From: Ascidia mentula
Lineage: Eukaryota > Chordata > Ascidiacea > Phlebobranchia > Ascidiidae
Assembly (NCBI GenBank): GCA_947561715.1
Contig: OX387197.1
Location: 6,693,001-6,757,000, forward strand
Length of the DNA: 64,000 bases
Direction of reading: 5' to 3'
Made by a program: the position numbers and the translations under genes
Notes under the pieces: generated by a model
The model's input: only the letters and a program-made list of their open reading frames with translations
Told to the model about the DNA's origin: nothing
Database searches by the model: none
Shown here: positions 38,926-51,806 of the stretch, one piece after another
Numbering within the stretch: the first letter of the stretch is position 1
Layout of the letters: every line of letters begins with the position of its first letter

Positions 38926-39019
38926 ATGGCTTCTTTCGGACATCAACTTATTTGCGCCACATTGGCGGCCCTACTGTCCTCATTCCTGGTCCACGCCACC
39001 ACGATGGAACGGCGTCACG
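38926..39019 (+). CDS. ADAMTS exon 1: start and signal peptide
   Basis: Starts at ATG (G at +4) and encodes a hydrophobic signal peptide ([17 protein letters not shown]). It ends with one base of a split codon before GTGAGT at 39020. It is chosen as the start because its phase fits exon 2 and the leader is a convincing secretion signal; an extra upstream non-coding exon is possible. Confidence 0.8.
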
Positions 39020-42000
39020 GTGAGTTGATTTAGGTTTTTTATTTTCTGGAGCGTATATGTGTTCATGAGGATGTAACTTTTGGCACAAATTGCGAAAAGA
39101 TTTATGCCACGATATGGAAAAATCACTTTATTTTCATTTGCGCCGATAGCCAACTAGTTAATACACATGGTCTTATACGCCATATAACCAGTGCCTGTGT
39201 ATGGAGAACTAGGGATCGTTAGGTTTTCACTCTCGCGCTTGCTTTGTCAATATTTGACTTTTTAATGGGTGACTAGATTTCCGTCCGCCGATTTGCACAT
39301 TTGGCCAAGTTAGGGCGCTGTACTGATTTAGCACAATAATGAAAACCCGCGAAAGTTATTTCCGATTTGTAAGATGATTAGTTGAATGCCTTTGGTGAAA
39401 AATCTTAATTGAAAACTTTAAGTAAGTGCTGCTGCTAACATTTTAACTTATCTGTTTATGTAACGTAACCACCAACCGATTAGCGCATTGTGCTCGGGCG
39501 TATTCGGCCCCAATTAACAGACTATTTCTGTACCTTTGATAGGGTTGGGTGTATAAACAACCTCCGCTGAGGGCCAGTGCGGCGCTTTTCATCTTTTGTG
39601 TAGTCCTGCTACCGTCTCGTTGGGCGCATTGTGTTCACGCTCACGTATGGGCGGCCATGATAAGGCTTGTGTAAATTTTACCCGTGCAGGGTTATTCGAC
39701 TTCCTGGGAGAACACGTTAATGACGTTAATCGGATTAGATTTGAACCCACTAGGACTATTTTAGTTGCGTTACTGTGTTTGTCTGTTTGAGTCCTCATTT
39801 GTATTGAGTACCGTTGTTACGAACTGTACATAAATGCCAAATTTTCAGTGATCCCCGACTAATCCTGTCCTTTGTGTTTTTTCTTTTCCTCGGAACACCG
39901 GACGATCGAGCAGAGAAGTTTGTGAAATCCCTCGAAATCATGGGCGCGGGAGGAAAGTTCGAACCGGTGGTGACTGTGATGCCAAAACGAGTCAGCCGCT
40001 CGGGACAGTTTCTCGAATACGCGTCCTTATCGCCATTGTCCGTTTACGAAGGGTCGCGAAGACTTCGGCGTCGGCGCAGCTTGGATGCCCGCGACGTCCG
40101 CGACGAACTCGACGCCGCGTCGGCCACTGCCGATGGCGACCATGAAGTGTTTTTCGACTTGGGGGATGCCCCGGGCACACCCCTGTCGGGCGCGAAGCTT
40201 CATTTAAAGCGAAATTACAAACTGGTCACAAGAAACTTTATGGTCGAGGAGAGGTCTCGCGGAGGCAAGTTGGTGAACAGACACAGCCTTGTGGAGGATT
40301 GCCACTACAAGGGAGTCATCCACAACCACGAAAGCTTCTCAAAAGTCGCGTTAAGCCTCTGCAACGGCCTGGTTAGTGTGACCTGGATCCTGTGTCATCA
40401 TCGAGCCATTTTTATATTTCTCAATTTAAAACCTTTATCGCAGCAAGGGGTTATTGTCCGGGGCGACGACACGTACTTTATCGAGCCTTCGTGGAACCAC
40501 ACAAAAAATGCGAGCCAATCAGAGGAAGGTCATCCCCACGTAATCCTGAAGCGTTCAGTCCTCGAGCATCTTACAGAGAGGCGGGAGAACGAAGAGGATT
40601 TGGGACATTGCGGCTACTCTGGTAAGAACGCATTTGTTTTTCCATAGTGTAAAGAGAGAGTGCGGCAGCCTAAACGTTTGCAACTGTGCAGATAAAGTAG
40701 CCGGCGAAACGCCCTGGTGGAAAATTGACCCACGGGAAATATCCAAAACCAAAGATGAGAAAAAAAGCGACGATGAAAGTTCCTCCGGGCGCCACGGCAG
40801 AAAGCATCAACACCACCATCATCGCACAAGCGCTGGACGCTCCGCGGCTGAAGAAGATGCAGTTGATGTGGAAGATGAGGTGGCTAAGAGCAGGAGAAAA
40901 CGATCCGTGAGTGTTGAACGACACGTGGAAGTCATGGTGGTCGCCGACAAAGTGATGGTTGGGTTCCATGGACGCAAAGACGTAGAAAAGTACATTCTCA
41001 CCATCATGAACATTGTGAGTATCAAAATTGCTGGGTTTAACTGAGGGCAACGGGATTATATTTTCATTCTAAATGATGTTTGCTTTACAGGTAAGCAATC
41101 TCTACCACGACTCAAGCATTGGAAACGCAGTCAACATTGTTGTTACAAGGGTGGTTTTGTTAACTGAAGACCAGGTACGTTGGTTTTATAACTACTGTCA
41201 GTCACGTGGACACGACTAAGATTGCATACCTTGGCTTATCGGGATGGGATAGGGATAACTGTAGTTGCAGCGCCATTTCACTAGAAACAATGCGCTTGTG
41301 TTGCAAACACTGGCATGTATTGTACAGAACCACAGTACATGGATGAATTTTCCGCCGAGATTTGTGTGTTAAGCTCTGATGCGGATGCGATAACGACCCT
41401 ATAAAGATAACGCGTTACGCACATCGCAATTTCATGGAAAAGAGATCCCTGTTTACAATATCATTCTTAACTACTGTAGCGGTTTTATCACGGGCTTGAT
41501 AACTCGCGTTTGGGACAAAGTAGTTACAGACAAGTCGCTTGTTTTGCCTTGTTTGCTCGCGCTGTTTACCTTCAAACCAAAAACTCCCTCAGCGCATTGC
41601 CGAAATTCCTCTTCATTAGCCCTGACGTCACGACATCACGTGACGCGAAAGGTCGAGGCCACAACAAATAGGAGCAAAGCGTCGATGGGGAATGTGTTTT
41701 TTTGCCTACAAATGTTTTGTCCAAACACGAGAAAAGTGATTCATATATCTTTAAACGTACGGCACATCCTAATATGTTCCACCCGGTCTCGACTCCCGTC
41801 AAAATGCCGAGATTTGATGTAGATATTGCGTTGGTGAAGGGCTTTGTAGGCCGGTTTTTAACTGTCAAGGACTCAACACGTCCGAATCGACCTGTTTACG
41901 GCGATTTGCTCTGAATGCGATAAATCGTTACTAGGAATAGAGCGCTTCCAGCGAGCGGCTGCGTCCAATCTAGCCATCGAGCGACGGATTAATCTTGCCA

Positions 42001-45000
42001 CACTATAAACATCAGCAAGCTTGCGGCATCGAGCGCACGCTTCGCACTATTTTGACCATGTTTGGTGCAGTGGAGGCTTGAGATTTCAGCAGGGTGTGCC
42101 TTTATCAGAAAGCGGCACGAAAACAGCCTTTCACACAGTCAACCAACTGCACCTGTTCCTCGATTCGTACATGCTTTTCCTGCGTACAGCCGGCCGGTAC
42201 TCGCAAATTACTTCTCGCATGAAAATCGAACCGAAGTGCTGATAAGGTATCTGGCGTGTAGCAGTTCCCACGTGGTCGAATGCCTCTCGCTGCGCCCATT
42301 TACGCAAGCCTCGGTTTCGTGTTTCAATGCTGAAGTGCTGGAGTTCATAACGGGGTCGAGGGTCCTGTGCAGTGATTCAATAATGCACCAATCGGTCGCA
42401 CGCGTCTGAAACGCTTGGACGGGCGGCTAACTGCATTGTCCTTGTGTCGCTGGACAAGATGCGTTTGTCATTCGATCGTTGGAAAGATAGACAGGTCCAC
42501 TTCAGAGTTCCATGGGGCGTTCAAAGGCAACCCGCACGCCACTCGAGGGAACAGTGGCACTTTCTCGCCCTTCCTGTGGTTTTCCCACGATTCAGCGCAG
42601 AACCCTTCGTTTTTGATTGTTAGTGCAGCGCCGTTTTATTGGCAAACCAGTGAACTGCAACGTTTTCACCTTCACAACTACAAAACGTTGAATTATTAAC
42701 ACTCGCAAGCGCACAGTGCCAATCCTTTTACGAATTAGTATTATATTTGTTCATTCACAACAAAGTTTGTAATTTTGTTTCAAAAGTAAATGTTTTTCAT
42801 TTTCAGCCTGGTTTGTCGATTAATCACCACGCTGATCAGTCACTTAACAGCTTCTGCCGATGGCAGTCGGACATCAACGTGAACCAATCGGATTTCGGCC
42901 TTGCTCACCATGACAACGCCATTCTTATCACAGGGTATGTTTCTTTGCTTTGCTTAACATTGACTCGACTTATTGCAAAGCCTTATTGACTTGTGTTTGT
43001 CGTTGTAAGTTTATGATAGGCTCATTAGGTGTATGTTCAGCAAACGTCATTGAGCCCCTACGGGAGCAATTGCTGCTTAAAGACATATTTGTTCTTGATA
43101 GGGAGGCAAATGCTCAGCTGTGCAGCCTTGGACTCTAACCTGTAGCTTGATTGCATTTGGCGAAATCGTTGTTTGTCAAATGTCTGGTTTTACAATCCAG
43201 TCTGGGGTTAGGGTTCCAGCCAAACCATATACCGTGGAGCGCGAACCGTTCACTAAGGGCTGTAGAAACCGGCACATGCTTACGTAATGTGTTATTTTCG
43301 GAGGCGTTTGTATCAGTTGAAACCCAAAACTGGACCCACTCACCCGTTGAAGCGTTTCCTTACAGCGGCAAGCCACGCTCCCCGTTCGTTATCCTAATCA
43401 CTCATTGAGGGGAGCTTTGTATAGGTCACAAAACAGTTGGCGTGAGAACTTGGTCGCGGTCCACCAGCCCCCTATGGCTCCTCAAAATGACTACCAATGC
43501 GGCCATGACAAGTCGGCTAGGAGCTTTGCGAAGCATGACGACGCTTGATCTGCGTGTGAGGCCGAGCATGTTACTTAAAAAACACGGTCAACCGGCTTTC
43601 TTACGTCGTTGGCAATTTGCGCCTTTGCGTGGGTTTCCAGCTGTCTTTTCCCCACTGCCCATACCGGCAATCATGGCGTCCGATAGCATGGTGCAGACGA
43701 CTGCGGCACCGTTGCCCAACAATGCGATCACTGTACTGAGGTAATTTCTCTTCATCCGGCCGGTGATCCCAGAAGCGATATCTCGCACCTTACGCGGATT
43801 AAACGCATTTCGAAAATGCCGCCTTTGTCGCCCAAGACTTCGGGTTTAGGGATTGTACAAAACCACGACAGGCAATTAGGTTTTATAGTGTTCACGGTGC
43901 TGCGATGACGTGCGCTTCTAAAAACAGTCCAGGGTGTTAAAAACTGTATCGGAAAAGGTCTTGTTTTGACCATCAACAATAACCATCTCTCACTTTCGCC
44001 CTGGAATGCCTAAGATCCTACAACTGGCTTTCGAGTGTTCCGCTGCCTGTTTCTCGTCAACCTTGAGCGATCGGATGTAAATCATTTGATAAATCCAGGG
44101 CGCCGGAATGCAAAACACGACCGGTGGATTCCAAGCCATAGAAATCGCAACTTCCCGATGCGTGAAAATATTAATCTTTCTGCAATTCGCTCTGTAAACA
44201 GTCGTGAAAAGGCAGCGATCGCAAAAATTCCGCGTAAACACCAGCCGACGATGCAAGCAATATGTCCATGTAGCCTTAAGTGCGGATCAAAGCCTTCACC
44301 CTCCTTTGAAGGCGGGCCTGAAAAAATAAGCCTGGTCATATAATCGCTTTTCAATATCCACTTCACTGCTCTTCCCAGATATGAATGGACACTTGCTCCA
44401 ACTTTATGATTCATTGCAAATGAACGCGGCTAAGCGATTTAGCCGTGTCTAATGTGGCCTGATGCAGTAAACACCTCACTATAGAGTTTGTTTTACGTAC
44501 AAAATCTTATGAATTTTTTTTGCTTTTTTGTAACTAAACATTGTTTACTTATATCCAGGAATGACATCTGCACCTACAAAAACCAACCTTGCGGGACCCT
44601 TGGTAAGTTGATTTTATTTTTTAAGCGTGGTGTATTTCGGACTGGCGAAACTCGAACACAAGGCTGTTAATTTTGCGCGAATTCTTACCGTTTAGTTCTT
44701 GTCTGAGGCGCTTCCTTCAAGAGGAAAGCGTTTGCGACTGATTGCTTCATTGGGACGCCCCGGGGCGGGTTGGTCTCGCTAGTTTGTAGCTGATTAAGAC
44801 CATTGTTGACAAATGCCCACTTGCGCAGTTAGCATAACAACATTTAAACGGACAAAAATTCATTGGGTGAAATTTGTAATGTGTTGGGGGTTTTTATTAT
44901 TTATTATTGGCCACTTGCAAAACAGGGGTTTGCGCTTTAGGTGGGGTCGCTAAATCTCGTGTAATATATTCGAAGCACAAACAACATCAATCACAAATGC

Positions 45001-48000
45001 AAACCGCGCATTACGAAAGTTTGCGTTCGACAACACAGCAGCTCTCGAAATAGCGGTCACCCCCCGCCATGCGCTCACCTCTTCCGCGAAAACAGGGCTA
45101 TTGTTCACTGGTTCCGCGCCGCAAGGAACTTTCGTGGGGGCTTCGACACGAGTGTATATTCTGGGCCCTCGTTTCCGCCCTAAGCTTTAAATGGACCGCG
45201 CTCGCGTCAAGGACCTTTTCAAACCACCGTCAACTGGCTGCGCGCGGAGATTGGGTGTACGCGGTCGCTTTTAAGACGACACGGACCAAAGTAAACTTTT
45301 GTCGATTGAACTCGCTCGCACGCGCGTTCAGGCCTATTGTGCCTTTGAACAACAACCTTGACGTCATGTCACGGGTCGCCGCAACCGATTGAACGAAGAC
45401 CCCGAAAGTTTAAAGCTTGTTTTCTTTCAGGTTTGGCCCCGGTTTCGGGAATGTGCGAAAACATGCGAAGTTGCAGCATCAACGAAGACATTGGCTTGGC
45501 TTCCGCTTTTACCATCGCCCACGAAATTGGCCACAAGTAAGTTCTCCACCCGTTTTCCGCGGCATTCAGGTTGTCTAGACGCCAGTGAATGATAATTGCA
45601 AATTGCAAACGCGGACGCCAAATCTAATCACCGGCTCCGAAGGGCATATTACATGGGACTTTGCTTAAGAGCACCCGCTATATCGTTACCCAAGAGTTGT
45701 GGTAGTGGCCCTAGAGCGCCTTTCGTCTAGACGCCCGTTTCAAGGAAATGAATGTTTTCTCAGCCGTTTCCACAGGACCGTTAAAAATCCAAACAAAGCC
45801 TTAAACCACTCATAAACCTGGCAAATGTAGGAGCAGGCCACATATATTCTCCGCTGCAACAGCTCAGCTTGCCGGTTGCAGCGCTGCAGCGTCTGCAACG
45901 TAAACACCACCTCTCCGACCGGCCTTTTTGCGTCTTTGGTTGGGACGTTAATCCCGCCAGTTGGCGATTGGCCATTAGTGGGTATCTGCCACACACGGCT
46001 ATAGTTTAACCTTCGTGCTCGGCGCTTCTGAATAATCCTTACGCCTGGCTGGAGATCGCGAAGACGAATGGGTCGATCCATCATCCTAAGTCGCTAGTCT
46101 GATGGTCAGTCAGCGATTCGAGTTCTTGTAAAAAAACCCATTTGCGGCTGAATATCGAAAACGAATGGAAGCAATTGTGCATTTAGTTGATTCCCGAACT
46201 CTTTGTTTGTAGCTTTGGTATGAATCACGACGGTACCAACAACGACTGCGGCCCAGGAAACGGCCATCCATCCAGAATAATGGCACCACAAATGACCAGT
46301 AACACCAGTCCTTTCATGTGGTCCAGATGCTCCAAAAAATACATCACCGACTTCTTAGAGTAAGTACACCGTATTGTGTTATGAGTTTGCATGGTTAAAT
46401 GTTTGAAACCTAATGTTTTGTTTTCTCTGTATGCAGTTCTGGTGCCGGCGCATGTCTTGTCGATACGCCACCATCCAGGGACTTTAACTTCCCAGAAGAA
46501 ATGCCTGGACAACTTCACGATGCCGACGAGCAGTGCCGATTCCAGTACGGCCCCCAGTCGAAGCAGTGCCACTACGGGGTGAGTGCCTTGCATATTTCCT
46601 ATCAAGCCCTCAATCTGAATGATTTATGTCTGCCGCTTTCCCGGCAAATGCGTCCAATGAGAGCCTCCGTTTCGTTTGTAAACATGCCTAATGACGCCCT
46701 GGCGCTATCTGTGAGCGATTAACACTTGACTGTAGGCCTAGCGCCCACCAAGATGGTTCATTTGTCTCAAAAATGAGCATCGTCATTACTGCACAAAGGG
46801 GCAAGGATATGTAATCAATCGGCCGCTTTTGTTACCAACGGTACGCAATCCCTTGGCGAAACTATCGCACTAAACGTACGTCATTTCGTGGTTCAGCGAC
46901 TTCTCACCTACGTATGCAGTGCGCGCATGTATCACCCAGCCGCGGTGGGTGGCCCTTAGCGCCCGACCAACTTCCGACCTGTTGGGTGAATGTTAGTGTT
47001 AAATGTTTGGCCCAGCATGCCAACGCGACCATGTCTTCATGCCAGTGCCAAGTACGGTTTATCAGGCCACCCAACCGGCATGAGTGCCCTCAAAATGTTT
47101 TTGGTTCTGTAATAAGCAACGCAAATTTTTTTCGGTCACACCTATAGTTAGAGATAGTATCTGTGCAAGATAAAGTTACAAAGCAATAAGGGTTTTAATA
47201 AACACTTGCTTTGTTGTTAAAATTGCTTTCTGGGTTGACGAAACTTAGCGATTGCCCCAGGCTCGAAAACTTCACAATCTCTCGACGCAATATTGGATTG
47301 TCTGACCTATATGTTGTTTACTCCAGGATGTTTGTCGTGAACTTTGGTGCACGAGCAAGAACGAACATTGTGCAACAAACAGCATCCCAGCTGCTGAGGG
47401 GACCAATTGCCAAACTACCTACATTTCACGTGGGGTAAGTCATCAACACTTTCAAGAACAGTTGATGAATGAAGTATAATGAATCGTCACCAAACAAATG
47501 TAGAATATGGCTTGCTCTCATACGTAATTGTTTTTATTTTTGTCGCAATCAACCGCTTTTTTTACGCAAATCAACAATCCGATTCACTTTTTAGTGGTGC
47601 TACCGCGGCAACTGCGTTCCTTTTGGTTACCGCCCACAAGCCGTAGACGGTTCCTGGGGCTCCTGGACGGCTTGGGCCGAGTGTTCTCGTACGTGTGGCA
47701 CTGGAATCAGCTCCTCGTCTAGGAGTTGTGACAGTCCTGCACCGGAACATGGTGGAAAGTACTGCATTGGCGAGAGAATGCGATACAGATCTTGTAACAC
47801 TCAGGTAAGAATTTACTCCAGAGCTTTTACATTTAGACTAAATGCATTAGAATTGTCGTAAGTGCGCTGTTGTATTGTATTGGAACCTGTGGAAATGCCT
47901 TTTGCCTCATTCTTAACTTCCCTCGCGGGTTTCATAAACAGGAATGTCTGTTCGCGTCTGGCGATTTTCGTTCGGCGCAGTGCGCCAATTCCGACAACAC

Positions 48001-51000
48001 GCCATTCCAGGGAAAATATTACAACTGGGTTCCGTACACTCTCGGTAGGTGTCGCCTCGGGGTGGAATTTTTTCCTCTTTCCGGGGTTGCAAGTTAATCC
48101 GCAAATGTAATTTTGCTTTTAAACGCGCCGCTGGCAACTTGGAACCAATAACATACCGGCTCGTGGGCTTATGTTGTTACTCGCTGCTTTTCGCCCTGCA
48201 CGCATACTGCGTACGTACGCTGCTAAATTGACTGCGGGACATACGAAATTTCGAAGTCGCCAAGCTTTTCTGCATTGACTGAATAGCGCGCAGATCCGCA
48301 ACAAACAGATTCACATCCCTGGGAGGCATTTCCACAGTGTGCAAATGTCTGTTTTTGAGCATGGACGTCCCTGTGACCACCCATGCATCCGAAATGCGCC
48401 CGCTTCGTTTTGCTAACTGCTTTGTATGCGTTGAATTTAACAGCCCTGCACCGACCCCAACTCGGACCCGCGGCGAGAGCAATGCGCTCGTCACGATACT
48501 GAGCTCTATCAGGGCAAATACTACAACTGGCTTCCCCATACAGGTAACGCTTTGCACCCGAAGCATGCTTTAAAATGTATTCTCGTTTGTTTTCCCCAAT
48601 CGAGGCAGCTTTTGTGCTTAGCAATTGTTGGTGTGAAATGTAATTTTTGGACATTATTTGTATTTAAAACTTTAGGATGCTAGAAGCCTTTTTTAAATTG
48701 CGTGTTTTGTGAGTTATTTCTGGTGTGCATGAAGTACTAAAATTAGTCGACCGAATCGTAGGGACTAAAGTCTATAAGTTGATCTTTGCTACGTATCGTT
48801 TTAACTCGTCATGTTCCCATAAGATAACCATTCATATCTCCATCTTGCAGGCAGCAACGTGAAGGCATGTGCCCTCAACTGTCTGGCACAAGGCTTTAAC
48901 TTCTTTGCTGAACGCGCGCCTGCTGTCATCGATGGCACACCATGCTTCTCAGACTCCCTTGACGTGTGCATCAACGGCGAATGTCATGTAAGCACCTCTC
49001 ACACCCATCTTCATGGCCTTAGCATTTTGCGATGCCATTTTAAGATAGCATCCCCACTGTTCTAAAGGTCACACCGCGCATTTACCAACAGCACAAAGTG
49101 CCGATTGTTTTAGCCGCTGTTGTACAATTCCTCAAGGAAAATTAATATAGCCACTTGGGGATAGCCTCCACCTTTGGTCCGTGGTTTATGAAAATAGATT
49201 CAAATGTTGTTGTTGAACATATTCTAGTTGAACAATTTTTGAGCATGCCTTTCTTCTTTGAGCAGCATGTTGGTTGTGATCACGTGCTTCATTCGAACGC
49301 CACTGAGGACAAATGTCGTGTTTGTGGCGGCGACGGCAGCACCTGTGAGACACAAGCCGGAATCTTCAATGTCCCCATCCCAAGTCATGGACGTAAGTGA
49401 ATTTGTCGCATATTTAGGCAAAAAAAAATAAGTTTGGTTAAAGCAGGGGAAGGTCGCAACAAAATATGGCTCCATTCGCCTGCAATAGGAAGGGTATTTG
49501 TTGAAAGTTGAATACAACCAAACAATTGGGGCATTCATACCCAGTATGGGCAATATTCCCTGCTGCAGTGTGCATGGTGGTGTTGTCAATCGGGCCATTA
49601 TATCCCTCGCACCCATGCGTATCCTTTTATGCACGCGATTCGACCACGATTCCGCCTCCTCCGAAATATCGCCTCCCTAATCTTTGATCGGGTTAAACCG
49701 AGAAAATAACTTTTCCTGCGTTTGACACCTCCGCAATTTGAACGGATTAATCAGAGTGCTTGGTGCAGCCAAAGTTCTGTCTCAACTCGGTCCTCCTACG
49801 TCACCCGCCCACGGTAAAATAAATGCCTCTTTGAATGGAGGCCACTTGTTATAAGCAGAACACAGTACTTCCGCTGTCTGACGCGCTCTCGACAGAAGCG
49901 TAAATATTTAGACTCCGCCGGCCTGGAGGCATTACCTATCTATTTGGCTTGAGTGAGTGAAACGATTTTTTATCTTTCGTGCAGAATACCACCAAGTCGT
50001 CACCATCCCACAAGGCTCGGTGAACATTCTCATTCAAGAGCTGGAAATCTCCAAACAGAATTATATCGGTGAGCAGTGAATACATGAACGTTTTGTGCTT
50101 CGTCTTATTCTCGTACCCGACCAAACATAAACGAATCCAATTATCCACACAGCGTTGAAAAATACTCGCGATGAGGACTACATTAACGGCGGGTGGACCA
50201 TCGACTGGCCGCAGAAATTTCAAGTAGCTGGTACTACGTTCACGTATAAACGCCCAGGAAACGAACCAGAGTCATTGGTTGCGTTGGGGCCAACCACCGA
50301 AGATTTGATTGTCATGGTAAGCGATTCCAAACTACTTAGTGCTGGTACAGGCGATTCTGACTTGTGAAATTGTTTTAAAACACGTAGTTTTTGATTAATT
50401 GATGTTAAGTCTTGCTTTGGTTCGCAGCTTTTGGTTCAAGAACAAAACCGCGGCCTCCGCTTCGAGTACAATGTTCCAGTCGAACGCGAAAGCAGCGGAG
50501 ACAACGTATCTCCATTCTTGTGGAATGAAGGCGACTGGACGCCTTGCACTGCAACCTGCGCTGGAGGCACCCAGCGTCGACCGGTTGAATGTCGAAGGGT
50601 CGATGACAACACTCAGGTGCAACCTAGCTACTGCAACCAGGCAAACAAGCCCGACGTGCAAGAACAATCATGCAACGTGGAACCATGCCCGCCGATGTAA
50701 GTATCGTGAGGAATGTTAGGTTTATCGGCACTGTAATCAAATGACAGAGACATGTTTGCAATTCGTTCCTATCATAAACTTATTATTCAATTTACAGTTG
50801 GTCCCCTGGCAAATGGAATGATTGCAGCAGAACGTGCGGAGGTGGCCACCGCACCCGCCAGGTTATTTGCATGCGCGTGTTGAGTCAGATCGAGGACGAA
50901 GTGATTGACGAAAGCTACTGCACCGGTAGAAAGCCGCCGTCTAGTGACAGCTGCAACCAGGAAACCTGCCCACCACGGTGGACCACCGGACGCTGGTCTT

Positions 51001-51806
51001 CGGTAAGTTTATGCCGCCCTTGGTTGACATGTACGAATATCGTGACATTCAAAAATAGTATAAAGCCTCAAACCGGTCAATCAGAACACCGCTTAATGAT
51101 TTCCGATTCGATCCCATGTATTTGTCTAGTTCATCAAACTTATAACACTTCCTCTCTGTTCAGTGCAAACCACGTTGCGGACCGGGCACCAAAACCAGAG
51201 ACGTGCAATGCAAGTCGAGTGACCGAAGGCAGACCTTCCCCGATGGCAGATGCGATATTCGAACCAAACCTGCAGCCAAAGCACACTGTAACAGCGGCTC
51301 TTGTCCCCCTCCCCGATGGGTGTACGGCAAATGGAGCAAGGTACGTTTGGAAATGTGTTGGTTTTGTAATACTTGAATATTAGATATCTCCTACCACTTC
51401 TCTTCAGCGAAAAACTTTTGCAGCAAAATTAGCGTTAGCTGCTTTTTAATGGTGACACAGTTGAGCGGTGAACAAGTCAATTGTGAAATAAACATCTTTA
51501 AAATGATATATCGCCAAATCAATACCGGGTACTTTTCCTCTACAGTGTTCTGCCCCATGTGGTCACGGAACCAAAAGGCGACGTGTCTACTGCGCTGTAC
51601 CTGGAACCAATTCGATGACCAATGGCTGTCCCACCAATCGCAAGCCTAAGACCGTGCAGTCGTGCGTTTCACAATGCAACGCCGATCCCGAGCCTCAGTG
51701 TCAAGACGATCCCAAAGTTGCATACTGCCGCCTTGTGCTCAGATTCAAGTTCTGCCACCGCGCCTACTTCCGTAAGATGTGCTGTTCCACCTGTTCACGT
51801 GGATAA
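38926..51806 (+). CDS. ADAMTS6/10-type secreted metalloprotease, complete gene
   Basis: Predicted secreted zinc protease of the extracellular matrix. The 21 exons used per transcript give about 1,182 residues. Domains: signal peptide (1-25), prodomain with cysteine-switch C241, furin site RRKR at 311-314, M12B catalytic domain (about 319-530) with zinc motif HEIGHNFGMNHD (H467, E468, H471, H477) and Met-turn M495, disintegrin-like (about 535-620), TSP1-1 (624-674), Cys-rich and spacer (675-about 905), four TSP1 repeats (about 911-1140) and a PLAC domain (1147-1180). Five TSP1 repeats plus PLAC, together with residues around the zinc site, spacer end and PLAC, match the ADAMTS6/ADAMTS10 class. 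In vertebrates these enzymes act on fibrillin microfibrils; a similar role here is inference. Exons 13 and 14 are alternatives. Introns over 300 bp contain no further exon I can see. All junctions are GT-AG and frame-consistent. Confidence 0.95.
39914..40371 (+). CDS. ADAMTS exon 2: prodomain
   Basis: Prodomain up to SLCNGL, a conserved ADAMTS prodomain motif. It contains a basic run RRLRRRR that could be an extra proprotein convertase site. The acceptor is tandem (GAGCAG): splicing at 39911 instead of 39914 would change E to AE at the junction. Donor GTTAGT at 40372. The open frame continues upstream to 39814, but that part is intron. Confidence 0.88.
40372..40443 (+). other. 72-bp ADAMTS intron 2, open in frame
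   Basis: A GT-AG intron whose length is a multiple of three and which has no stop in the coding frame. Retention would insert 24 mostly hydrophobic residues between CNGL and QGVIVRGDD. In ADAMTS relatives these two motifs are nearly adjacent, so removal is the expected form. Confidence 0.8.
40444..40621 (+). CDS. ADAMTS exon 3: prodomain, cysteine switch
   Basis: Encodes [15 protein letters not shown], a typical prodomain strand, and ends at HCGYS, the cysteine-switch region (C241). Donor GTAAGA at 40622; phase 1. Confidence 0.93.
40692..41014 (+). CDS. ADAMTS exon 4: pro-peptide end, furin site, catalytic start
   Basis: Begins [11 protein letters not shown] charged, histidine-rich linker follows (QHHHH around residues 283-287, then an acidic run), then furin site RRKR|S at 311-315. 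The catalytic domain opens with [14 protein letters not shown]. Donor GTGAGT at 41015. Confidence 0.95.
41091..41174 (+). CDS. ADAMTS exon 5: catalytic domain
   Basis: Twenty-eight codons ([20 protein letters not shown]...) with the conserved [10 protein letters not shown] strand of reprolysin domains. Phase 0 at both ends. A 1,632-bp intron follows. Confidence 0.95.
42807..42934 (+). CDS. ADAMTS exon 6: catalytic domain
   Basis: Encodes [16 protein letters not shown] and [10 protein letters not shown], both standard in ADAMTS catalytic domains. Acceptor TTTTCAG; donor GTATGT at 42935; exits in phase 2. A 1,624-bp intron follows. Confidence 0.95.
44559..44602 (+). CDS. ADAMTS exon 7: 44-bp catalytic micro-exon
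   Basis: Fourteen full codons ([14 protein letters not shown]) plus two split codons. It is accepted because phase 2 in and phase 1 out exactly join exons 6 and 8 and supply the conserved DIC and CGTLG residues. Confidence 0.92.
45431..45536 (+). CDS. ADAMTS exon 8: zinc-binding helix
   Basis: Encodes [24 protein letters not shown] and the first part of the zinc motif (AHEIGHN). The last asparagine codon is split with exon 9. Donor GTAAGT at 45537. Confidence 0.96.
46213..46359 (+). CDS. ADAMTS exon 9: third zinc histidine and Met-turn
   Basis: Begins FGMNHDG, supplying the third zinc histidine, and contains RIMAPQM with the Met-turn methionine. It ends YITDFLD, the end of the catalytic domain. 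Donor GTAAGT. Confidence 0.96.
46437..46578 (+). CDS. ADAMTS exon 10: disintegrin-like start
   Basis: Encodes [22 protein letters not shown] and QCHYG. The YDADEQC-type motif is typical of the ADAMTS disintegrin-like region. Donor GTGAGT at 46579. Confidence 0.94.
47327..47434 (+). CDS. ADAMTS exon 11: disintegrin-like domain
   Basis: Thirty-six codons: VCRELWC, then [11 protein letters not shown]. The CxxLWC pair and the ADGT-like turn are hallmarks of this domain. Phase 0 at both ends. Confidence 0.94.
47595..47804 (+). CDS. ADAMTS exon 12: central TSP1 repeat
   Basis: Encodes [11 protein letters not shown], then TSP1 repeat 1 ([17 protein letters not shown] ... [13 protein letters not shown]) and ends RSCNTQ. 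It exits in phase 0 and can join either exon 13 or exon 14. Confidence 0.96.
47942..48044 (+). CDS. ADAMTS exon 13 (alternative a): Cys-rich start
   Basis: Enters in phase 0 and leaves in phase 1: [16 protein letters not shown], then [14 protein letters not shown]. This is the DFR..QCA and GKYYNW segment that follows TSP1-1 in ADAMTS6/10. Acceptor AAACAG; donor GTAGGT. It is homologous to exon 14; only one of the two fits a mature message. Confidence 0.92.
48444..48543 (+). CDS. ADAMTS exon 14 (alternative b): duplicate Cys-rich start
   Basis: Same phases as exon 13 (0 in, 1 out): [16 protein letters not shown], then [13 protein letters not shown]. It matches exon 13 at about 16 of 33 residues with both cysteines aligned, and is one codon shorter. 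Acceptor TTTAACAG; donor GTAACG. If exon 13 precedes it in the same RNA, the shifted frame stops at TGA 48500-48502. Confidence 0.9.
48851..48987 (+). CDS. ADAMTS exon 15: Cys-rich domain
   Basis: Encodes [28 protein letters not shown] and DVCINGECH, all canonical Cys-rich motifs. It needs one base from the preceding exon; joined straight to exon 12 it would stop at TGA 48860-48862. Confidence 0.95.
49266..49392 (+). CDS. ADAMTS exon 16: Cys-rich end
   Basis: Encodes HVGCDHVL, then [13 protein letters not shown], the conserved end of the Cys-rich domain, followed by the first spacer strand. Donor GTAAGT; phase 1. Confidence 0.95.
49985..50068 (+). CDS. ADAMTS exon 17: spacer domain
   Basis: Encodes [16 protein letters not shown] and SKQNYI, the beta-rich spacer motif (vvxIPxGs). 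Donor GTGAGC; phase 1 in and out. Confidence 0.93.
50153..50316 (+). CDS. ADAMTS exon 18: spacer domain
   Basis: Encodes [20 protein letters not shown], then [15 protein letters not shown] and EDLIVM. The INGxWTIDWP wording is characteristic of the ADAMTS6/10 spacer. Donor GTAAGC. Confidence 0.95.
50428..50696 (+). CDS. ADAMTS exon 19: spacer end and TSP1-2
   Basis: [17 protein letters not shown] closes the spacer. TSP1 repeat 2 follows, from [16 protein letters not shown] to CNVEPCPP. The donor GTAAGT overlaps the ATG of the last split codon. Confidence 0.95.
50798..51002 (+). CDS. ADAMTS exon 20: TSP1-3
   Basis: Third TSP1 repeat: [20 protein letters not shown] ... SCNQETCPP, then the first strand of the next repeat (WTTGRWSS). 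Donor GTAAGT at 51003. Confidence 0.95.
51164..51340 (+). CDS. ADAMTS exon 21: TSP1-4
   Basis: [16 protein letters not shown] ... CNSGSCPPP completes the fourth TSP1 repeat and opens the fifth (WVYGKWSK). Phase 0 at both ends. Confidence 0.95.
51546..51806 (+). CDS. ADAMTS exon 22: TSP1-5, PLAC, stop
   Basis: [16 protein letters not shown] ... CVSQC ends the fifth TSP1 repeat. The PLAC domain follows ([27 protein letters not shown]) and then stop TAA at 51804-51806. The six PLAC cysteines are present. Confidence 0.96.
   Translation, partial: CSAPCGHGTKRRRVYCAVPGTNSMTNGCPTNRKPKTVQSCVSQCNADPEPQCQDDPKVAYCRLVLRFKFCHRAYFRKMCCSTCSRG

Follow-up and report, generated by a model that had tools for sequence, protein, structure and literature searches.

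Tandem homologous exons in an ADAMTS6-type gene of the ascidian Ascidia mentula, a probable mutually exclusive pair at the start of the Cys-rich domain

The window analyzed here is a stretch of 64,000 nucleotides (nt) from the ascidian Ascidia mentula (contig OX387197.1, positions 6,693,001 to 6,757,000 of the forward strand), and coordinates are given as positions in this window. It contains a complete ADAMTS6-type gene on the + strand (38926-51806), running from an ATG at 38926 to a TAA at 51806. The exon model, which was built from a tblastn comparison of Phallusia mammillata ADAMTS6 (P0003) with the window, has 22 exons, 21 of which are coding in any one transcript, and an AG acceptor and a GT donor are present at every internal boundary. 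Exons 13 and 14, referred to as A and B, are the subject of this analysis. The predicted product has 1182 residues with exon 13 (isoform A) and 1181 residues with exon 14 (isoform B). The features in and around the exon pair are:

47595..47804, + strand: exon 12, encoding the end of the disintegrin-like domain and the first TSP1 repeat; it ends in ...CNTQ in phase 0, and 69 of its 70 residues are the same in Phallusia
47942..48044, + strand: exon 13 (A), 103 nt, bounded by AG and GT, entered in phase 0 and left in phase 1
48045..48443, + strand: intron between A and B, 399 nt
48444..48543, + strand: exon 14 (B), 100 nt, bounded by AG and GT, entered in phase 0 and left in phase 1
48500..48502, + strand: TGA that interrupts the frame in exon B if A is spliced to B; it lies upstream of the exon 14/15 junction by 41 nt and of the last junction by 1204 nt
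48851..48987, + strand: exon 15, carrying on the Cys-rich domain from phase 1
48860..48862, + strand: TGA read in exon 15 when both A and B are skipped, from the frame computation

An earlier note on this DNA had assigned the exons to an ADAMTS6/10-type gene, and the tblastn comparison, the Pfam domain order and the nearest listed proteins all support that assignment; its numbering of exons 12-15 also agrees with the full gene model. In isoform A, Pfam recognized the propeptide, Reprolysin, ADAMTS_CR_2, TSP1, ADAMTS_CR_3, spacer, TSP1 repeats and PLAC, all above cut-off and in the order of an ADAMTS6 orthologue or co-orthologue. Isoform B is 88% identical to Phallusia P0003 over 807 aligned columns, counted from exon 6 onward. 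Among the matches listed (the best 120 of 212 and the best 120 of 169), the closest relatives are ADAMTS6 proteins, first that of Phallusia and then those of Clavelina, Ciona and vertebrates. A search with the prodomain matched four tunicate ADAMTS6 proteins and five fish proteins, and the three fish proteins that carry gene-specific names are ADAMTS10. A tunicate gene that is co-orthologous to both would be expected to give matches of both kinds, and Ciona is reported to have a single ADAMTS6 gene where vertebrates have ADAMTS6 and ADAMTS10 (PMC549037). Identity to Phallusia is very uneven from exon to exon, with values of 98-100% for exons 5, 12 and 15 and of 68-78% for exons 1, 4, 20 and 22. 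Exon 14 itself is 82% identical and is flanked by two exons of 98-99%.

Of the 33 aligned residues in the peptides encoded by A and B, 16 are identical, including both cysteines and the motif QGKYYNW. The description of these exons in the earlier note as tandem homologous copies was confirmed to the base, as regards coordinates, phases and the number of identical residues, and the frame arithmetic proved correct as well. If exactly one exon of the two is used, the frame stays open into exon 15. Joint inclusion leads to a first stop at the TGA 48500-48502 and joint skipping to one at the TGA 48860-48862, so that neither leaves an intact protein, and the double and null products both stop upstream of several junctions. 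The claim that the reading frame enforces a choice needs refining: transcripts with both exons or with neither would be unproductive owing to their early stops, but the splicing choice itself is not forced by the frame.

Criteria for candidate mutually exclusive exons were taken from the 'Search algorithm' section of PMC3228551, i.e., similar length, splice-site and reading-frame pattern, and a global alignment score of at least 15% of the self-score. The lengths of A and B (103 and 100 nt) are similar and differ by a multiple of three, both exons have the AG..GT pattern and pass from phase 0 to phase 1, and the scores between them are 0.43 and 0.41 of self. When open stretches of similar length bounded by AG and GT or GC were scanned on the + strand of the window, at least 15% of self was reached by 12 of 3558 stretches with A as query and by 16 of 3521 with B. 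Every one of these 28 hits overlaps one of the two exons, and outside them the highest values are 0.046 (A) and 0.03 (B). On the - strand of the window no stretch reached 15% (0 of 3445 with A and 0 of 3410 with B). The comparison of other internal exons with their own flanking introns covered 17 of 18, exon 7 being too short; seven of these had no candidate, and the best score among the other ten was 0.022.

We therefore regard exons 13 and 14 of this ADAMTS6-type gene as probably an old tandem duplication that, in an ascidian closely related to Phallusia, has been kept as a mutually exclusive pair and gives two isoforms. In such a scheme exon A would be present in mRNA, and the spliceosome would join exon 12 to either A or B, one excluding the other, and then to exon 15. 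Trans-acting factors would make the choice at weak splice sites, and transcripts with both exons or neither would meet early stops and presumably undergo nonsense-mediated decay. Binding of substrate would be altered by the exchange.

Both exons bear marks of constraint, and the view of the earlier note that each encodes a version of the opening of the Cys-rich domain is supported. Codon positions 1 and 2 agree between the two exons in 20 and 19 of 33 codons (codon-shuffled means 7.9 and 9.8), and position 3 is near random (12 of 33; mean 9.3, p 0.19). An estimate of the nonsynonymous to synonymous rate ratio (dN/dS) gave dN 0.49 and a dS that could not be estimated (returned as -1), hence no ratio. 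Conservation at positions 1 and 2, near-random third positions and a dS beyond estimation together point to selection at the protein level on A and B over a long time.

These data also bear on the possibility that A is a dead or dying relic, i.e., that the duplication was once used and that B alone is spliced now. The long branch of A would fit such a history, and so would the single versions in the four tunicate proteins inspected, which in Phallusia is of the B type. Exon A nevertheless has an open frame, AG and GT sites and a YNYTRAY match starting 31 nt upstream, and none of the nine residues found invariant in seven other versions has changed in it. It scores above B in the Cys-rich profile (47.4 against 42.1 bits for ADAMTS_CR_3 in context, with a cut-off of 21) and at both donor and acceptor. 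The private residues are balanced, with nine in A as against three in B plus six common to B and Phallusia only, and there is thus no sign of relaxed constraint on A. In simulations, an unconstrained exon kept the nine residues, the frame and the splice dinucleotides in 6% of cases at 0.1 substitutions per site, in about 2% at 0.15 and in 0.75% at 0.2, which leaves room for a fairly recent loss only. We consider a relic unlikely.

Divergence between the copies likewise speaks to an assembly artefact or a falsely duplicated haplotype. Assemblies are known to contain spurious extra exons, and the zebra finch ADAMTS13 gene is among those that were falsely duplicated (PMC9516828). A false copy would be near-identical, yet A and B agree in 16 of 33 residues, and their flanking introns, compared in register, agree in 28 of 100 bases upstream and 33 of 100 downstream. 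Both exons lie in one contig of 27.9 Mb. Genome queries with A and with B in context, scored on the best candidates, gave a near-identical match to each only in the window, and the other rows (21 and 13 matches) were the partner exon, neighboring exons or paralogues at 32-54% identity. False duplication was rejected on the divergence of A and B, and its probability is practically negligible.

The protein collection searched with A in context and B in context is clustered at 90% identity, with one representative per cluster. The ADAMTS6 genes of Phallusia, Ciona and Clavelina are orthologous to the window gene and have the same protein region, but their records hold one exon version per protein, unlike the two of the window gene. 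Phallusia P0003 has a B-type version, with 27 of 33 residues as in exon B. The version in the Clavelina protein matches A in 20 and B in 19 of 33 residues, and that in the Ciona intestinalis protein matches A in 16 and B in 18. Vertebrate versions are closer to A (21 of 33) than to B (16 of 33 for Xenopus ADAMTS6 and 15 of 33 for Amblyraja ADAMTS6). In Ciona savignyi ADAMTS6 (P0146), the homologous exon start reads VGTLYLLSLGV where relatives have xCPxP, and it looks like a mispredicted exon start. This protein was excluded from the counts of invariant and derived residues, and its first seven columns were set to X in the tree. The fish proteins P0149 and P0094 failed the extraction pattern, and the tree does not include P0013.

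Window exon B and Phallusia have six states in common that are absent from Clavelina, C. intestinalis, Xenopus, Amblyraja and Polyodon, and A has none of the six. Exon A has F9 and P21 as in all five of these outgroup sequences, and V30 as in Clavelina. In a tree of 33 columns and 11 rows, B and Phallusia were grouped (97/93), and an arrangement of A and B as sisters was rejected (p-AU 0.013). The six shared states and this rejection date the duplication to before the divergence from Phallusia. It may also have preceded the divergence from Ciona and Clavelina. The free tree puts A outside the other tunicates (91/92), and a grouping of A, B and Phallusia was not rejected (p-AU 0.0565); given the short alignment and the long branch of A, the depth below Ciona and Clavelina is uncertain.

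The three introns around A and B measure 137, 399 and 307 nt. Matches to the branch-point motif YNYTRAY start 31, 33 and 52 nt from their 3' ends, and in the middle intron there is a further match at 171 nt. With a splice-site matrix that was small and derived from the gene's own sites without exons 13 and 14, the donors of these two exons were the two weakest of 21 in the gene, and the acceptors ranked 14th and 17th of 21. Decoys scored as high as the site of A or B in 1.8% (A) and 8.6% (B) of 838 donors and in 7.9% (A) and 12.2% (B) of 673 acceptors. The sites of A and B thus appear plausible but not strong. Weak splice sites are common in regulated exons.

Two means of exclusion were rejected. 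Steric interference is ruled out because the 399-nt middle intron is too long by the 50-nt donor-to-branch criterion of PMC5740500, and U2/U12 incompatibility was discarded because none of the three introns has a U12 donor or branch motif. What remains would be frame incompatibility plus a choice by splicing factors at the weak sites.

Weak sites would equally permit regulated unproductive splicing, in which the gene has one normal exon and double or null inclusion switches the protein off through decay; the stops of both products, lying upstream of several junctions, fit such a switch. An off-switch needs no ADAMTS residues, yet A keeps the nine invariant ones and the first two codon positions are conserved. 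Unproductive splicing could coexist with mutually exclusive use of A and B. As an explanation in its own right we consider it very unlikely.

The note had further suggested that the two proteases would differ in a substrate- or matrix-binding region. This region can now be placed more closely, since alignment to the ADAMTS13 structure 6qig lets the exon start one residue before C438, at the end of the first TSP1 repeat, and run to about residue 478. The exon thus aligns to ADAMTS13 residues 437-478 approximately, a stretch that holds L443, M446 and G471-V474, and it covers the place of the Cys-rich exosite, which in ADAMTS13 is Gly471-Val474 (PMC6706451, PMC4885070). The local alignment is ambiguous. 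Three of the four alignments to isoform A, and both of those to isoform B, place a gap opposite G471-A473 and set V474 against V (A) or L (B); in the remaining alignment to isoform A (3vn4), the residues opposite G471-A473 are V, P and Y. ADAMTS13 also differs from the window gene in belonging to a different subfamily, in having no exon choice and in a five-residue insertion. The isoforms differ clearly opposite ADAMTS13 residues 439-447, with LFASGDFRS in A and TDPNSDPRR in B. The phenylalanine at position 9 is present in A and in the five outgroup sequences and is lost in B and Phallusia. An altered exosite would most likely be the consequence of the swap. The ADAMTS6/10 group has been linked to fibrillin and related matrix proteins (PMC7226509).

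Several points weigh against a mutually exclusive pair with an exosite function. The support comes from comparison of genomic and protein sequences. Among the best 120 of 212 matches to the A query, whose sequences were partly inspected, no A-type protein was recognized, and the top match was the B-type protein of Phallusia. The Clavelina and Ciona representatives carry one version each; their clusters (3, 3 and 4 members) could conceal an A isoform. The Phallusia cluster, by contrast, has a single member. Exon A sits on a long branch (0.46), which makes the exact depth of the duplication unsure. The agreement with the exosite is one of place alone, as the residues opposite G471-V474 vary with the alignment. 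In A and B, G or S and R stand opposite the hydrophobic L443 and M446 of ADAMTS13, and the hydrophobic character is thus absent at these places. Docking and selector pairing of the RNA did not exceed that of shuffled sequences in any of three arrangements (p 0.41-0.84, 60 shuffles each, single species). For whole-intron duplexes, p values of 0.63, 0.055 and 0.51 were obtained (200 dinucleotide shuffles each), the strongest, between the second and third introns, being marginal.

Mutually exclusive homologous exons that are incompatible in frame are a well-described class (PMC5740500, PMC3228551). Like A and B, the pairs found with WebScipio (PMC3228551) and in human (PMC5740500) are homologous exons of similar length and equal phases, joint inclusion shifts the frame, and by homology the exon lies in a folded domain. 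In the human catalogue, exon lengths are not multiples of three in 377 of 629 clusters (60%) (PMC5740500). Unlike catalogued exons, A and B are known here from the genome; the main text of the human catalogue does not contain the term ADAMTS (PMC5740500). In vertebrate ADAMTS genes, splicing alters ancillary domains, as the swap of A and B would, and for ADAMTS4 and ADAMTS17 effects on activity, secretion and possibly substrate recognition have been described (PMC8275829). These events differ from a homologous-exon swap at the start of the Cys-rich domain in that ADAMTS4 loses the spacer and gains a new C-terminus, and ADAMTS17 has short spacer peptides deleted or inserted (PMC8275829). As the note had held, a homologous, mutually exclusive exon pair in an ADAMTS gene seems not to have been described, as far as the titles and openings of abstracts listed in searches of the open-access literature go. 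The mechanism is of a known kind, and the novelty lies in the gene family and in the site.

Paralogous ADAMTS genes were searched for a second exon pair with five exon peptides against 11 loci (about 3.1 kb each, about 1.5 kb on either side, several overlapping), and among the matches listed each locus gave a single strong hit to an ADAMTS exon, which is a weak negative. Another ADAMTS-like gene of this genome (L045, G000:C2:17050500-17060400) has a two-exon block in three tandem copies about 1.27 kb apart, present as direct repeats at L045:3650-7408. The block encodes the end of the disintegrin-like domain and the first TSP1 repeat, and blastn aligns its copies, together with their introns, at 94-96% identity over 1.2-2.5 kb. 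In a tblastn search with the window protein, no Cys-rich or spacer exons were found after the block within the stretch. Recent tandem exon duplication, a decaying gene and an assembly effect are candidate explanations for these repeats.

ADAMTS proteases select their substrates largely through exosites in the ancillary domains. A bolder and more tentative reading, which we regard as possible though doubtful, is an ancient splice-controlled exosite switch. Tunicate ADAMTS6 would supply two proteases that differ in their Cys-rich exosites and hence in their matrix substrates, the choice depending on tissue or stage. This arrangement may go back to a time before Ciona, Clavelina and Phallusia diverged, and vertebrates would have two genes (ADAMTS6 and ADAMTS10) in its place. 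If this is true, isoforms with the same catalytic domain and a difference confined to one exosite segment would offer a clean experiment on that segment, in the fibrillin-linked ADAMTS6/10 group. It would also mean a solution at the level of splicing in chordates that have one gene, according to the Ciona phylogeny (PMC549037), where vertebrates have two.

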